The notes under the pieces were generated by a model. That model was not told where the DNA came from. It made no database searches and worked only from the letters and a program-made list of their open reading frames with translations. DNA of 32,177 nucleotides from a virus: IMG/VR virus record IMGVR_UViG_3300015371_000117, positions 1 to 32,177 of that record. One strand, written 5' to 3'. The translations under genes were made by a program, and so were the position numbers. The first letter of the stretch is position 1. Each line of letters opens with the position of its first letter. Positions 11,519 through 25,510 of the stretch are shown in pieces.

Positions 11519-11962
11519 ATGACCGACACACACACAGTCCCTACCACATCCTACATCAGCCGCATCGGCCGCATGATCGGCAATCTGCTGCGCGAAGGCT
11601 ACAGGGCTGAGGCGCACAAGCTTGTGGACTGGGCGCTCATCGTGGACGACCAGCGGCCCGTCCTCACCAACGACACTCGCCCTCCGGCCGCAGCGGTCCT
11701 GCCAGCCACGTGCGAGCTGGCGCTTCCGTTCCGCACTGCCGCCGATCAGCGCGACAACATCGCACGGATGGCGGCTAGCGTGCCCGGACCCGATGAGTGC
11801 CCGCCCGTGAAGTGGGTCACGCCCGAGCCCGGCGAGGTTGGCTCACGCGAGTGGATCGAGGCGCGCGAGCCCGGACCCGATGAGTGCGACAACTGTCTCG
11901 CGCGCGCCGAGCTGTACTACGACGAGGAGAGCGGACTCGCATTCTGCGACCGCTGCCACTAG
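11519..11962 (+). CDS. First rightward gene; protein with C-terminal zinc ribbon, 147 aa
   Basis: Not a known family. N-terminal 50 residues are helical (SRIGRMIGNLLREGYRAEAH). The second half has a duplicated PGPDEC segment (about residues 91-96 and 118-123), the second copy entering a zinc ribbon CDNC...CDRC near the C-terminus. The start is the ATG 6 nt after TACAAC; the 46-codon upstream extension covers the palindromic control region and is not believed. Position and the zinc ribbon would suit an early regulator, unproven. Confidence 0.65.
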   Translation: MTDTHTVPTTSYISRIGRMIGNLLREGYRAEAHKLVDWALIVDDQRPVLTNDTRPPAAAVLPATCELALPFRTAADQRDNIARMAASVPGPDECPPVKWVTPEPGEVGSREWIEAREPGPDECDNCLARAELYYDEESGLAFCDRCH

Positions 11963-11999
11963 TACCACCGTGCCACGTCGGCACCGCCGCGCGGCGGTC

Positions 12000-12023
12000 G
12001 TAGGTTCGAGTCCTACGGTGGCA
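12000..12023 (+). other. tRNA T-arm and acceptor-end-like sequence; possible attachment-site core
   Basis: GTAGG-TTCGAGT-CCTAC is a perfect tRNA T-arm with its 7-nt loop, followed by GGTGGCA, which could pair with TGCCAC at 11971-11976 or 11954-11959. No anticodon arm with a 7-nt loop can be drawn upstream, so a functional tRNA is unlikely. Phage attP cores often copy the 3' end of a host tRNA gene. Confidence 0.4.
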
Positions 12024-12166
12024 CATCGCAGCAAGCAGGAGAGTCCCCGAACGGGTAGCACGCGGTAGCCCCGGCGGCGCAGGACCCAGCGAGCGCGAGC
12101 GACGTCGAGAGGTGGGCCGTACCCTTGTTAAAGGCGGGAGGGGAGCGACACTCAACCTGCCCTAAC

Positions 12167-14418: not shown

Positions 14419-16548
14419 ATGATTACAGCGAACGAGCACATAAAGACTGTCCGTGGCAATCTGTCGGGCGAGAAGGTCGCCATGGGAATCGAGGAGGAGC
14501 ACCTCGGGCTGGTGATGGACACGCTGGCCGGGATGTACTCAGACCAGAAGATGGCGCTGTTGCGCGAGTATGGGTGCAATGCGCGCGATGCCATGGTCGC
14601 GGCCGGTAGAGGCGACCACCCCATCGAAGTCACACTGCCCGGTGACCTGTCGCCATTCCTGACGATCAAGGACACGGGCATCGGCATGGACATCGAGGAC
14701 ATCCGACGCACGTACTCGCGCTACGGCGCGAGCACCAAGCGCGATACGAACGCGCAGGTAGGCAAGTTCGGTATCGGGTCTAAGGCGGCGATGGCATACA
14801 CGGACCAGTTCACTCTCTGCGCGGTGAAGAACGGCATCCGCATCCAGGTCGCCATCAGCCGCACCGCCAATAGCGGCGGCGACATGACAATCGTGGATGA
14901 GCGCCCTACCTCCGATCCGAACGGCGTCGAGATCGTGATCCCATGCAAGCACGGTGACTCGGGCGCGTTCCGGGAGAAGGCCAAGTACTTCTTCAGCTTC
15001 TGGGAGCGGGGCATGGTGTTGGTTGATGGTGAGGAGCCGACGCCATTCACTGAGGGCGCGATCCCGATCCCGAACATGGACGCGTGGGTTGTGAGGTGCG
15101 GCGCCGGTGGCGTGGGCGATGTTGTAATCATGGGGAACGTGCCCTACCCGGCGTCGCTAAGCCAAGGCACGCTACCCTCGCATAGCCTTGTGGTGCGCGT
15201 GCCTATCGGCGCAGTTGACATACCGCCCGCCCGCGAATCGCTCAAGCAGTCGCCCGAGACGGACGCCATGCTGGCCAAGCTGCGAGCCGCGTACAAGGCG
15301 AATGTCGGAAAGGCTGTCCAGGCACAGATCGACAAGGCTGCCACCAAGCGCGACGCGATGATGGCGCGGGAGTGCTGGAGCACTGTGCTAGGTGGAAAGA
15401 CGGGCGACGCGTACACGTGGTGTGGCACCGTGATGCCCTATAACTTGCGCGCGTTCGGGGCAGTGTCGTGCGGAAGCCACGGCAACAACGCACTTGTGGA
15501 CCCGAAGTGCTCCAATTGCAAAGAGGCCGAGCCGGACTTCTTCACCTTCGGCACTCAGTCCAGAGACTGGACCAGCTTCATGGCTTGCCGCGACATGCCG
15601 CTGTCTACGATCGATCACGAACTGAGGGGCGACCGCGCGCCGTACTGGGTCAAGAACAGCAAGTACCTGCTGGTCGAGGGCTACGACCGGGGCAACAAGC
15701 CCACCGCCACGGTCAAGAAGAAGATGGTGCAGTACATCATCGACAACGGCTTGGTAGACGAGGGCTACACGGATGTAATCATGTTCCGCGAGCTGCACCA
15801 GCGCAACGCTGACGCGTTGACGTGGATCAAGCCGATCAAGCGGATCAAGTGGGCGGACGTGTGGGCCACGAAGCTAGCGCGCGAGACGAAGATCACGAAC
15901 AGCGGACGACCGACCGGCTCGTACCCTGTCGCGCAGCCGCCGCCCAAGGACTACGTGCCGCACGCGTGGTACATCAAACGAGGCCAAAGTGGCATGTTGC
16001 AGGGAGTGACATGGAAGGATGTACCAGCCAACGAGCTGCCCTCGCGCCCGATTTACGTGACCTCCTCCAGGGACGACGCTATGAGGATGGCGTTGCAGTG
16101 CAACGAGCCGGTTGTGTTCCTGACGACGTCGCGCGTCGACAAGTTCAAGCGCGAGAACCCGAATGCGCGCCAGGCCGTGCCGGTCGCCAAGGCGAGGCTG
16201 GAGGCGTATGTGAAAACACTGTCCAACGATGAGAAGGTGCTTATGTCACACATAGGCAGGTGGGGAGGATATGGCAACCCATTCTATGGGTGGGGTGGCC
16301 TTGACGGCCAGGCCGTAGACGATCCCGATGTTTTGGAATTGGTGAGGCTGGGTAGGCTGAACGTGAAGGACAAACTCCTAAAGCTGCAAGACATGGGAGG
16401 CTATGCCACCGACATCAAGCCCGACACGCCCTTCGAAGACCCCCGACACAAGTACCCTTTGCTCGACAGCGTTATCGGCAAGGAAGACGTGGATCACGCA
16501 GTCCTCTACATCAACGCGGCGTATGCCGCTCAGGCGAAAGGAGCCTAA
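14419..16548 (+). CDS. RIIA-like GHKL ATPase
   Basis: 709 aa, near the 725 of T4 rIIA. The N-terminus ITANEHIKTVRGNLSGEK resembles T4-type rIIA proteins. The GHKL (Hsp90/MutL/histidine-kinase-type) ATP fold is seen in the N box LLREYGCNARDA (Glu50, Asn54, Asp57), the G1 box IKDTGIGM (Asp85-Met90) and the G2 box GKFGIGSKAA (115-124). A long C-terminal region of unknown fold follows, with a His/Cys-containing segment around residues 355-375. In T4, rIIA and rIIB act together at the host membrane in lysis inhibition and protect against prophage exclusion; the same pairing is seen here with the next gene 2 nt downstream. The biochemical role is unresolved even in T4. Three AARRCTGTCC-type motifs fall in this gene. 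Codon use is less GC-rich in the last 350 nt. Confidence 0.85.
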   Translation: MITANEHIKTVRGNLSGEKVAMGIEEEHLGLVMDTLAGMYSDQKMALLREYGCNARDAMVAAGRGDHPIEVTLPGDLSPFLTIKDTGIGMDIEDIRRTYSRYGASTKRDTNAQVGKFGIGSKAAMAYTDQFTLCAVKNGIRIQVAISRTANSGGDMTIVDERPTSDPNGVEIVIPCKHGDSGAFREKAKYFFSFWERGMVLVDGEEPTPFTEGAIPIPNMDAWVVRCGAGGVGDVVIMGNVPYPASLSQGTLPSHSLVVRVPIGAVDIPPARESLKQSPETDAMLAKLRAAYKANVGKAVQAQIDKAATKRDAMMARECWSTVLGGKTGDAYTWCGTVMPYNLRAFGAVSCGSHGNNALVDPKCSNCKEAEPDFFTFGTQSRDWTSFMACRDMPLSTIDHELRGDRAPYWVKNSKYLLVEGYDRGNKPTATVKKKMVQYIIDNGLVDEGYTDVIMFRELHQRNADALTWIKPIKRIKWADVWATKLARETKITNSGRPTGSYPVAQPPPKDYVPHAWYIKRGQSGMLQGVTWKDVPANELPSRPIYVTSSRDDAMRMALQCNEPVVFLTTSRVDKFKRENPNARQAVPVAKARLEAYVKTLSNDEKVLMSHIGRWGGYGNPFYGWGGLDGQAVDDPDVLELVRLGRLNVKDKLLKLQDMGGYATDIKPDTPFEDPRHKYPLLDSVIGKEDVDHAVLYINAAYAAQAKGA
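14442..14452 (+). repeat. Dispersed motif AAAGACTGTCC (exact)
   Basis: 23 nt downstream of the RIIA-like start codon, read as K-T-V; close enough to the promoter to act as an operator. Confidence 0.7.
15309..15319 (+). repeat. Dispersed motif variant AAAGGCTGTCC
   Basis: Inside the RIIA-like gene, sense, read as K-A-V. Confidence 0.5.
16214..16224 (+). repeat. Dispersed motif variant AAACACTGTCC
   Basis: Inside the RIIA-like gene, sense, read as K-T-L-S. Confidence 0.5.
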
Positions 16549-16550
16549 CC

Positions 16551-17483
16551 ATGCAGTACAGCATCGTAGGTGACGGAGACAACCAGTTCCTCACCGTGTT
16601 CGACCCGAGCTACACCAAGCCCGGCGTCATGCACAGCTCGCACCCCAACTTCGACAAGGTGGTGGATGCAATCGAGGCTGGTGTCTACGTGGAGGAGACT
16701 GCGTTCGACCCGGCTGAGGCTGCGCGCGAGGCATTCGAGGCGCTGGGAGATCGCGTCACCATCAAGGGCAGCACCGTATACCTCGACGGCGACCCCGTGG
16801 ACAACTCGGTCACGAAGGCCATCGTGCGCTGGATGCAGGATGGCGAGCGCGACTGGAACCCGCTGGTGCGGTTCTTCGAGAACATCCAGGGCAACCCGTC
16901 GGAGGCCAGCCGCGAGCAGCTCTACAGCTTCCTCGCCGCGAACGACTACTCGCTCACGCGGGATGGCGAGATCGTCGGCTACAAGGCTGTCCGTGAGCTG
17001 GAAGACGGCTCCTTCCAGTCAATCAATGCAGGCAACCCCGGAGACGTGCAGGTGAACGGCGAGGACGCTGCCGCCCGGCCCGTCCAGCAGGTGGGCGATA
17101 CCGTCACGATGGCGCGGTCGAAGGTGGACCCGAGCAGCGCGGCATACTGCTCTGTCGGCCTCCATGTCGCAGCGTGGAGCTACGCCAACGGCTGGTTCGG
17201 TGGCCACGGCTCACCGGTACTGCGAGTTATCGTCAACCCGACCGACGTGGTGGCGGTGCCCGACGATGAGTCGGCTCGCAAGATGCGCGTGTGCAAGTAC
17301 CGCATCGATGCGGTGATCGACTCGCCGGACGAGCGGGCGCTGTTCACCACGCTGGGCGAGGTGGAGCCGGACGACGGATGGACCGATCAGAGTCCGGTCG
17401 ATCAGGCCATCGACGCCGCCTACGAGGACGACCCCGACCCTGAGGACGAGTACGACTCCTACGATGAGGACGAGGGCTGGTAG
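16551..17483 (+). CDS. RIIB-like protein
   Basis: 310 aa, the size of T4 rIIB (about 312). Diagnostic features are FLAANDYSLTRDGEIVGYKA (about 125-144), the segment CSVGLHVAAWSYANGWFG (about 200-217) and PTDVVAVPDDESARKMRVCK (about 227-246), all of which follow the pattern of phage rIIB-like proteins. The extreme C-terminus is very acidic (Asp/Glu-rich from about residue 290). It starts 2 nt after the RIIA-like stop, supported by AAAGGAG upstream (16537-16543). Function in T4 is joint with rIIA; the molecular activity is unknown. Confidence 0.85.
   Translation: MQYSIVGDGDNQFLTVFDPSYTKPGVMHSSHPNFDKVVDAIEAGVYVEETAFDPAEAAREAFEALGDRVTIKGSTVYLDGDPVDNSVTKAIVRWMQDGERDWNPLVRFFENIQGNPSEASREQLYSFLAANDYSLTRDGEIVGYKAVRELEDGSFQSINAGNPGDVQVNGEDAAARPVQQVGDTVTMARSKVDPSSAAYCSVGLHVAAWSYANGWFGGHGSPVLRVIVNPTDVVAVPDDESARKMRVCKYRIDAVIDSPDERALFTTLGEVEPDDGWTDQSPVDQAIDAAYEDDPDPEDEYDSYDEDEGW
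16982..16992 (+). repeat. Dispersed motif variant CAAGGCTGTCC
   Basis: Inside the RIIB-like gene, sense, K-A-V frame. Confidence 0.45.
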
Positions 17484-22383: not shown

Positions 22384-24026
22384 AGGTCATTCTGAGCGAG
22401 GAGTACGTCAAGAAGGGCGCGGCCCTGGCGGTCCCTGGCGCGTACTGGGAGCGCGGTGAGGGCTGGGTCGTGGACGACCCGACGCCGAAGGCCGCGTCCA
22501 TCGCCATCGCGCTGTTCCCGGCCGTGCTGATGGACTACCCGGAGCTGGGGGACATGCGCGACCAGCTCTATGGCGACGCGCGGCCCGACGACTTCGCCAC
22601 CAAGTACGGCGTCAAGCTGGCGTGGGGGCTGCAAGGCATCATGCCGTTCGACTACCAGGCTCTCGACACCGGCTACATTGCCGCGCAGCTCAAGCAGATC
22701 GGCGGCGGCTTCCTCGGGTGGGATCGTGGCCTCGGCAAGACCGCCGCGTCGCTGGCCATTGCGGCCGAGCTGCCCGCCAAGCGCATCCTGGTCGTGTGCG
22801 GCAACACGATGAAGCAGGCCGTGTGGGGCGACGAGATCGCCAATCTATGGCCCGAGGCTCAGGTGTCCGTCATACCCAACGAGAAGCGCAAGCGCGAGGA
22901 GTGGTTGGCGTATCACAGTGGAGCGATGATGACGCGGCCGGGTACCAATCCGCTCGTGTGCGTAGTCCACTACGAGGCCCTGGCGCTCATCGCTGGCGAC
23001 AAGGGTCGGGGTAAGGGCTGGGACAAGCTGGGCGTGTGGGACCTGATGATCTTCGATGAGGCCCATCGCCTAGCCAACACGAAGACCCAGATGCACCGCG
23101 CCGCCATGAAGGCCCGCAAGCGTTCCAAGCACGCGCTCGCCCTGACCGGCACCGCCATCATGAACCGGGCCGACGACCTGTTCGGTCAGCTCAACTGGGT
23201 GTTTCCGAAGACCTACAAGGCCAAGTGGAAGGACTGGAACGACCGCTACCTGGAATACGTGCGAACGGATTACGGGATGGTGTGCGTTGGATTCAAGGTA
23301 GAGATGCTGGAGAAGCTACGCCGTGAGCTAGGGGTGTTCATGGTGTACCGCACCAAGAACTCCGTGCTCGATCTGCCGAAGCGCACGGAGGAGACGCGCA
23401 TGATCGACCTATCGAAGAAGCAGCGCAAGGCGTACGACGAGCTGCGCGACCAGTTCTGGACGCAGCTCGACAGCGGTGAGGAGCTGTCGGCCTCGAACCC
23501 TCTCGCCCAGCTCAACATGCTGCGCCGTGTGGCGACCGGCCTCAGTGCCACCGAGTCACGGGTAGACGACAGCACGAAGCTGGACTTCTGCATGGAGCTG
23601 ATCGAGGACAACGAGGACGAGGCGTTCGTCGTGTTCTCGTGGTACAAGGCGCCGCTGTACACTCTGTCGCAGCGCCTCGACAAGAAGGGGATCGGCCATC
23701 ACATCATCACCGGCGACACCAAGCAAGTGGATCGTCCGCAAGCGGTCGAGGACTTTCAGGCTGGGAAGGGTCGAGTGTTCCTCGGCACGCTCTCGACACT
23801 GGGTGAGTCGGTCAATCTCCAGCGCGCCTCCAGTGCTGTCTTCCTGGATCGCGCTTGGAATCCTGCGGTTAACGCCCAGGCCGCTGACCGCATTTATCGG
23901 ATTGGGCAAGACCGGCCGGTCACGATCACTCACCTGGTGGCTCGTGACACCGTGGACGAGCTGCGGGTGCAGCCGGTCCTGGCCTCGAAGGATGCACTCA
24001 GAAAGGCGGTGCTAGGTGCCGAGTGA
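22380..24026 (+). CDS. SNF2-family DNA helicase/translocase
   Basis: 548 aa. Superfamily 2 motor in order: motif I GWDRGLGKT (113-121), DEAH box (226-229), motif III LTGTAIM (255-261), C-lobe FVVFSWYKAPLY (about 416-427), motif V-like LGTLSTLGESVNLQRASSAV (468-487) and motif VI QAADRIYRIGQ (500-510). The D-R-I/R-Y-R-I-G-Q pattern is diagnostic of SNF2-type proteins. In phages such proteins serve in replication, repair or remodelling; the precise role is unknown. The ATG overlaps the previous stop. Residues 1-90 form an N-terminal domain of unknown fold. Confidence 0.88.
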   Translation: MKVILSEEYVKKGAALAVPGAYWERGEGWVVDDPTPKAASIAIALFPAVLMDYPELGDMRDQLYGDARPDDFATKYGVKLAWGLQGIMPFDYQALDTGYIAAQLKQIGGGFLGWDRGLGKTAASLAIAAELPAKRILVVCGNTMKQAVWGDEIANLWPEAQVSVIPNEKRKREEWLAYHSGAMMTRPGTNPLVCVVHYEALALIAGDKGRGKGWDKLGVWDLMIFDEAHRLANTKTQMHRAAMKARKRSKHALALTGTAIMNRADDLFGQLNWVFPKTYKAKWKDWNDRYLEYVRTDYGMVCVGFKVEMLEKLRRELGVFMVYRTKNSVLDLPKRTEETRMIDLSKKQRKAYDELRDQFWTQLDSGEELSASNPLAQLNMLRRVATGLSATESRVDDSTKLDFCMELIEDNEDEAFVVFSWYKAPLYTLSQRLDKKGIGHHIITGDTKQVDRPQAVEDFQAGKGRVFLGTLSTLGESVNLQRASSAVFLDRAWNPAVNAQAADRIYRIGQDRPVTITHLVARDTVDELRVQPVLASKDALRKAVLGAE

Positions 24027-24201
24027 ACAGTACGTGCTGGTCAGCGACGTGATCCAGGCGGAGGATGCCGCCCGCCACGCGGGGTTGGTTTCGATCCGCG
24101 AGCAAGCGGGTACCATGGAGCTGAGGTTCAACAACGGCGTTCAGCTCGACATCCGAGCCGAGGGCGTCCAGATCATCGAGACGAAGGAGTGGAGGCCGTG
24201 A
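24016..24201 (+). CDS. Unknown small protein, 61 aa
   Basis: GTG start within the last codons of the SNF2 gene (11-nt overlap). Strand-helix-strand pattern: EQYVLVSDVIQAEDAARHAG then TMELRFNNGVQLDIRAEGVQ. Resembles a small antiparallel beta domain. It is followed by a coupled GTGA start. Function unknown. Confidence 0.55.
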   Translation: MPSEQYVLVSDVIQAEDAARHAGLVSIREQAGTMELRFNNGVQLDIRAEGVQIIETKEWRP

Positions 24202-24878
24202 AGGCGAAGGAAGTGATCGAGCAGAACACGCGCGACATCGCACTGCTCAAGCGCGGCATGGCCGAGCTGAACGACAAGATCGACCAGCTCCTGAGCCGCG
24301 GCCTCGGTGACTACGACTTCGAGATCGACGTTGCCGGGGTGAGCGGAACGGCTACCTCCGTCGCCCAAAACGACGGGTCTGTGGGTTCGAATCCCACCCC
24401 CGGCACTGAGCCGGAAGTGAGCATGACCATCGGCGGCACCACCGAGGAGCAGAAGGAGGCATACAAGGCCTTCGTCGCCGCCAGGGAGCGCGCCGAGCAG
24501 GAGCGCAAGGGGTTGGTGGAGGAGGGCGACATGCGCGTCATAGCGCCGCCTAATGAGCAGCAGTACCTGATGCGCAAGAACCTCGCCGCCGAGATAGGCT
24601 GGGAGCACTGGACGCGCTCTGACGAGTACCAGTCCGACCCGCTGCCGGAGGCCGAGGCCGTGCACGCGTACATCGCGGGCGGCCCGATGTGGCTCGTCCA
24701 CTACGACCGCGACTTCGTGAAGCAGCAGACGATGGCGACTCGCCAGCGGATGGTGCAAGACGTTATGCTCACAGACGTGGACGCCGCGAATGAGCTGAGT
24801 GCCGACATCCTCAAGTACGAAGACACCAACGACCCTAGCGTGGCGACAGACAACGCCAACGCCGCCTGGGACCAGTAG
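24198..24878 (+). CDS. Unknown protein, 226 aa, reading through a tRNA-like element
   Basis: GTG start overlapping the previous stop. Residues 1-45 are helical (for example MKAKEVIEQNTRDIALLKRG). Residues about 46-70 are encoded by the tRNA-like sequence and end in VGSNPTPG, which is what a tRNA 3' half reads as in this frame. Residues 76-226 are a separate helical domain rich in Glu/Gln (EEQKEAYKAFVAARERAEQE). An alternative start at 24423 (ATG, after GGAAGTGAGC) would give a 151-aa protein downstream of the tRNA-like element, with the N-terminal part as a second, truncated gene. Which is used cannot be told from sequence. Confidence 0.55.
   Translation: MKAKEVIEQNTRDIALLKRGMAELNDKIDQLLSRGLGDYDFEIDVAGVSGTATSVAQNDGSVGSNPTPGTEPEVSMTIGGTTEEQKEAYKAFVAARERAEQERKGLVEEGDMRVIAPPNEQQYLMRKNLAAEIGWEHWTRSDEYQSDPLPEAEAVHAYIAGGPMWLVHYDRDFVKQQTMATRQRMVQDVMLTDVDAANELSADILKYEDTNDPSVATDNANAAWDQ
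24333..24405 (+). tRNA. tRNA-like gene, apparent anticodon CAA, aberrant
   Basis: 73 nt with canonical spacing. Acceptor GCCGGGG/CCCCGGC (7 perfect pairs), discriminator A, no encoded CCA. Anticodon stem CGTCG/CGACG (5 pairs), loop CCCAAAA. T-arm GTGGG-TTCGAAT-CCCAC perfect, T8, G18-G19 present. Deviations: the D stem keeps only about two pairs, position 33 is C instead of the near-universal U, and the apparent CAA anticodon (Leu) comes with a short variable loop of 5 nt, whereas bacterial tRNA-Leu has a long one. So it may be a degenerate tRNA, a tRNA with altered identity, or an attachment-site copy. It lies within an open reading frame. Confidence 0.5.
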
Positions 24879-25510
24879 TGGACCTGTCGCGCGACAACGA
24901 TCCGGTCGCCGCCCTGGCGAAGCGGCTCGACAGGATCGAGAAGCTGCTGAAGCCCGGGGGCCAGAAGCGCATCGACCCGGCCGTGCTCGACAAGGGAAAG
25001 CTGTCCAAGCTGGTCAGCTCGTTCGAGACCGACACCGAGTCCATCGGCCGAGGCGTAGTCACCGGCACGAACATGGCTGCCGACGCCATGCCGTGGCTGA
25101 TTCAGGTACTGCCGCAGCACCCGGATTACGCCGAGAACGTCGGGCCGTGGGTGCCTAACTACGGCGCCGCAGGCGAGGCCTTCGGCGGCAATGGCTCCTC
25201 TGCCGGTGCGCAGTTCAACCGCGTCGCGTGGGACCTTCTGTTCAGCGCGGGCACGTACAGCTTGTCGCTCGTGTACAAGAAGCTGGCAAACGGCGGTATC
25301 ATGACCTTCCAGCTTGACGACGAGACTCTCAGCACCACTGTCGATACGTACCTTGCGGTCACCCTGCCGAACCAGTTCGTCACCATCCCTGGCGTCCAGG
25401 TTCCGGTCAACGGTAAGAAGCGATTCCGCATCAGGATGGACTCGAAGAACGCCGCTAGTGGCGGCTACTTCGGGATCATCAACTCATTCCAATTCTGGCG
25501 CACAGCGTAA
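24878..25510 (+). CDS. Tail-fibre-like jelly-roll protein in the replication arm, 210 aa
   Basis: GTG start overlapping the previous stop (TAGTG). Residues 1-50 are a helix suitable for trimer formation (DPVAALAKRLDRIEKLL). From about residue 105 the sequence is a beta domain: RVAWDLLFSAGTYSLSLVYK and later GKKRFRIRMDSKNAASGGYF, ending GIINSFQFWRTA. Such domains occur at the ends of phage fibres and in carbohydrate-binding modules. Position among replication genes is unusual. It could be a misplaced receptor-binding protein or an early protein using the fold differently; not proven. Confidence 0.6.
   Translation: MDLSRDNDPVAALAKRLDRIEKLLKPGGQKRIDPAVLDKGKLSKLVSSFETDTESIGRGVVTGTNMAADAMPWLIQVLPQHPDYAENVGPWVPNYGAAGEAFGGNGSSAGAQFNRVAWDLLFSAGTYSLSLVYKKLANGGIMTFQLDDETLSTTVDTYLAVTLPNQFVTIPGVQVPVNGKKRFRIRMDSKNAASGGYFGIINSFQFWRTA

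Follow-up and report, generated by a model that had tools for sequence, protein, structure and literature searches.

The window analysed here, a virus contig of 32,177 bases taken in full, carries portal and terminase genes on its minus strand and, on its plus strand, rIIA/rIIB-like genes, an SNF2 helicase, DNA polymerase A and others. The rIIA-like (HATPase) and rIIB-like genes adjoin at 14419-17483 (+). Our subject is an open reading frame at 24198-24878 (+), where 226 codons run without a stop from a GTG start to a TAG, and inside which a tRNA gene lies at 24333-24405 on the same strand. A small gene at 24016-24201 (+), for which no family was found, overlaps the start of the frame by four bases (GTGA at 24198), and the next gene, at 24878-25510 (+), overlaps its stop by one base (TAGTG at 24876). 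Overlaps at both ends fit one gene of a packed operon, and the finding of no promoter-like site near the tRNA fits co-transcription of the tRNA with that operon.

Both flanks of the tRNA are protein-coding in this frame. The upstream block, 24198-24332 (+), has 45 codons, a predicted helix, and GC contents of 0.67/0.24/0.91 at the three codon positions; the downstream block, 24408-24875 (+), continues in the same frame with 0.67/0.39/0.90. With codon log-odds learned from 17 further genes of the window, the values for this one frame are 0.995 bits per codon ahead of the tRNA, -0.27 across it and 0.66 beyond it, and the other frames score lower. A value as low as that of the tRNA segment is reached by only 0.4% of 25-codon windows taken from those training genes. 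Since the upstream block contains no stop codon and the tRNA begins exactly at a codon boundary, translation begun at 24198 has to pass through the tRNA and render it as AGVSGTATSVAQNDGSVGSNPTPG, about 24 residues; the remaining two sense frames each stop within the tRNA. The preliminary description had placed a tRNA-like element in the sense direction of a 226-codon stop-free frame, and the same-frame codon signal on its two sides agrees with that placement. Coding on the antisense strand was considered and rejected, the scores there being near zero or negative. Two antisense open frames do cross the tRNA, at 24141-24758 (-) and 24311-24673 (-); they contain GGGIRTHRP and GVGFEPT, which arise from backward reading of the T arm, and a gene caller could misannotate them. 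Searches for homologues of the 24198-24878 protein, whole and as its C-terminal part, found none, family scans were also empty, and no family or phage homologue was found for the gene that follows. A single-sequence structure model of the protein has a mean pLDDT of 43, too weak for a structure search, and in this low-confidence model the tRNA-encoded segment is predicted to be the least ordered part.

The 73-nt cloverleaf at 24333-24405 is confirmed by sequence and fold as a real tRNA. The only tRNA that ARAGORN calls in the window is Leu(caa), at 24333-24406 (+), and Rfam RF00005, run with permissive filters, matches 24333-24405 over model positions 1-71 with 38.2 bits against a cut-off of 29. 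The default-filter Rfam gathering scan overlooked this tRNA, 9 bits above the cut-off though it is; the permissive scan alone listed it. The acceptor (7/7), anticodon (5/5) and T (5/5) arms form all of their 17 pairs, while the D stem is weak, with two pairs, or three if C12 is bulged out. The gene runs to discriminator A73 with no encoded CCA, and the anticodon CAA (24366-24368) sits in the loop CCCAAAA, directly after C33 at 24365, which is the third base of a GCC codon. Position 33 is thus C where U is usual; otherwise the A14, G18, G19, A73, CAA anticodon and class I variable loop are those of a short-arm tRNA-Leu(CAA). The perfect main arms, the reduced D stem, and C33 with CAA on a class I body had all been read from the letters beforehand, and each holds up.

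Could the fold be a by-product of the code? Of 3000 versions of the open reading frame recoded with synonymous codons, 24 also draw a tRNA call from ARAGORN, so that its call by itself is not decisive. The element, however, folds with an energy of -36 kcal/mol (z -2.5), its T-arm 15-mer occurs once against 0.01 expected, and just 342 of 200,000 random synonymous encodings of AGVSGTATSVAQNDGSVGSNPTPG retain all 17 pairs, so that the RNA shape is not implied by the peptide. Together with the Rfam score, these results rule out a chance fold.

Which tRNA is it? In a comparison with 392 Actinomycetota genomes, the best chromosomal matches, which are partial (91% over 34 nt), fall in the 3' half of tRNA-Leu(caa) of two genomes. 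The 7-bp acceptor stem is identical to that of these chromosomal tRNAs and the T arm differs by one base, which makes leucine identity likely. The two host tRNAs have a long variable arm, an encoded CCA and U33, whereas the nested tRNA has none of the three. To judge by its sequence, then, the nested tRNA is related to actinobacterial tRNA-Leu(CAA), minus the long variable arm. Cellular tRNAs for leucine belong to class II, and one might think that a class I body marks a new identity, as the preliminary description supposed it might. We reject this idea, since a short arm is frequent among phage tRNAs for Leu(CAA): viral contigs contain at least 120 matches to a CTCAAAA loop with class I spacing. 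Short-variable-arm tRNA-Leu(CAA) genes are indeed widespread in viral contigs, with more than 100 recognised, and we found no description of them in the open-access literature searched. The tRNA-Leu(caa) of Mycobacterium phage LeBron (cluster L) shares 35 of 40 bases with the nested tRNA across the anticodon and T arms. This gene, LeBron gene 102, likewise has the anticodon CAA, a class I variable loop and no CCA; it differs in having U33, in lying in a tRNA cluster, and in overlapping merely the last 10 bases of a gene, whereas the nested tRNA has C33, is alone, and lies within a coding frame. Against a model trained on 41 short-arm Leu(CAA) tRNAs from other phages, the window tRNA not among them, the nested tRNA scores 55.7 bits, and most of the other phage short-arm Leu tRNAs searched score 66-84 bits.

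Among phage Leu(CAA) tRNAs C33 is rarer than the short variable loop, yet it is recurrent. It is present in 56 of 1686 tRNAs of the viral loci examined, and ARAGORN-called Leu(CAA) tRNAs with CCCAAAA and matching spacing occur in at least five other viral contigs. Most of these five short-arm examples belong to GC-rich phages, where they sit within large clusters of tRNA genes. Among cellular genomes, ten sequences fitted the pattern of a C33 Leu(CAA) tRNA, none of which was called as a Leu(CAA) tRNA. In the protein frame the change from U33 to C33 is synonymous, GCT to GCC (Ala), and coding preference is therefore an alternative cause of C33.

How unusual is the nesting? At least 30 open codons flank the tRNA on each side in 98 of 1586 phage tRNAs, so one might propose that a long open frame through GC-rich, tRNA-bearing DNA is a sufficient cause. 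We rejected this proposal because such open frames lack a two-sided coding signal. To measure that signal, we computed the GC3-minus-GC2 contrast of each flank in any stop-free frame and kept the lower of the two values, in samples of 225 and 316 distinct tRNAs from GC-rich viral loci, obtained by two different selections with the window counted in each. The nested tRNA has a value of 0.52-0.53, and the next values in the two samples are 0.15 and 0.20. Comparable two-sided coding signal was thus absent from all of the roughly 540 other tRNAs of GC-rich phages, in samples that were chosen by pattern and are rich in tRNA clusters rather than a random draw of phage tRNAs. The nesting of the tRNA in a coding gene is well supported. 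In the open-access literature that was searched, no phage tRNA turned up in sense orientation within a gene, and the nearest likenesses are of two kinds. The tRNA-Lys-TTT of phage Fionnbharth also overlaps a protein-coding gene, gene 37 (PMC10865867), but that tRNA is antisense and overlaps its gene at the 3' end, whereas the present one is sense, internal and in frame. A putative tRNA-Pro within the mitochondrial mutS of octocorals (PMC11353228) is likewise a tRNA-like sequence inside a coding region; that case is mitochondrial and conserved among octocorals, while no relatives of the phage case were found.

What might such an arrangement do? The reading that we prefer, to which we would give a probability of about one half, is that a phage tRNA-Leu(CAA) is nested, sense and in frame, in a protein gene, serving as a linker when translated and potentially being processed as a tRNA. 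The operon transcript would then have two fates. If translated, the tRNA segment would become a flexible linker, AGVSGTATSVAQNDGSVGSNPTPG, that joins an N-terminal helix to the remainder of the protein. On RNA not occupied by ribosomes, RNase P together with 3' trimming could release the tRNA, to which the host would have to add CCA, as none is encoded. After cutting, the downstream RNA would begin with a plausible ribosome site at 24413-24425 (+), picked out from its letters, in which GGAAG stands five bases before an ATG (24423), so that the C-terminal part could be made alone. Expression and function of the tRNA are what we infer here. One role would be the decoding of UUG during infection; UUG accounts for 34 of the 437 Leu codons in 17 genes of the window. 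Another might be to replace a host tRNA cut by anticodon nucleases, a role put forward for phage tRNAs whose anticodon loops are changed (PMC10264068). The nested tRNA resembles those in that its anticodon loop departs from the host form, and the C33 loop could differ at nuclease sites; resistance of this Leu(CAA) loop is suggested by analogy with that literature only. A point against processing is that a cut transcript would leave the upstream 45 codons with no stop. More tentatively, we suggest that the same 73 nt are in true dual use, as linker code and, on other transcripts, as an excised and working C33 tRNA-Leu(CAA), with processing setting the balance between the full protein and a C-terminal part begun at ATG 24423.

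A possible alternative is that the element is now a tRNA pseudogene, inserted in frame into a linker, serving at present as code only, with its fold a leftover of recent insertion. The element departs from a normal tRNA at C33 and at the extra C12, and both are third codon positions; Ala is encoded by GCC in preference to GCT (272 against 70), CCA is not encoded, and the protein model is least ordered over this segment. All of this is as one would expect of a segment kept as code. On the other hand, all 17 main-arm pairs are intact, even though nine of them include a third codon position, and C33 occurs also in phage Leu(CAA) tRNAs outside coding genes. Intact stems would, however, also be expected after a very recent functionless insertion, and the weak D stem, the lost U33 and the score of 55.7 bits, against 66-84 bits, fit decay equally well.

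It is doubtful that the locus instead holds two genes flanking an excised tRNA, with the downstream protein begun at ATG 24423 and the shared frame either incidental or the product of a gene-fusing deletion. In its favour, GGAAG stands five bases ahead of that ATG, and tRNAs between phage genes are nothing unusual, as in LeBron. No stop codon closes the upstream 45 codons, however, so that ribosomes must read through, and one would have to put down to coincidence both the match of frames and the fact that a single frame is free of stops over the tRNA. An error of sequencing or assembly in the metagenome contig, by which a stop was removed or two loci were joined, is unlikely as the cause: there is a single contig and no second record of the locus, but the one-frame coding signal reaches both edges of the tRNA, and both ends of the open reading frame overlap their neighbours correctly.

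Phage attachment sites often overlap the 3' ends of tRNAs. The earlier suggestion of an attachment core, in which the element would be a phage copy of a host tRNA end used in integration, is nevertheless barely credible, even with tRNA-Leu-CAA a known attB site in mycobacteria (PMC10865867), as the tRNA is complete and not a 3' fragment, the window proteins scanned, a set that leaves out some small ORFs, include no recognisable integrase, and the proposed search for the same tRNA in host genomes gave no exact match to its 28-nt 3' end in 84,980 species genomes, among which the host's may not be. The best Actinomycetota matches, already described, are partial.

How did the nesting come about? 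A scan with the DNA polymerase found no relatives. The terminase scan gave one relative, at 33%, on a 4.6-kb contig, and the SNF2 helicase scan one, at 48%, on a 5.4-kb contig that ends 450 bases past the match and has no tRNA. No syntenic relative of the tRNA locus was found with the open reading frame, the next gene, the DNA polymerase, the terminase or the SNF2 helicase as queries, and no target-site duplication was seen at the tRNA edges. A recent insertion, a fusion of two genes across the tRNA, and a decaying tRNA kept as a linker may each be compatible with the locus, for which neither a protein homologue nor a syntenic relative was found.

Translation and tRNA maturation are mutually exclusive on one RNA molecule, and an in-frame sense tRNA within a gene would therefore be a compact processing switch. 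It would also put competition between ribosomes and RNase P to the test. The nested tRNA suggests one route from tRNA genes to new protein linkers, and for annotation it shows that a gene caller and a tRNA caller may both be correct over identical bases.

The window has a second, degenerate tRNA-like element at 11970-12025 (+), 56 nt long and beginning 8 bases past the stop of an open reading frame that ends at 11962. Its acceptor stem, GTGCCAC/GTGGCAC, has 7 bp and its T arm reads GTAGG-TTCGAGT-CCTAC, while the D and anticodon arms are collapsed to one GC hairpin. The short-arm Leu(CAA) model gives it 20.4 bits (E 5.5e-4), Rfam has no match and ARAGORN makes no call. It resembles a tRNA with an internal deletion, or else a minimal processing element of the RNase P type.
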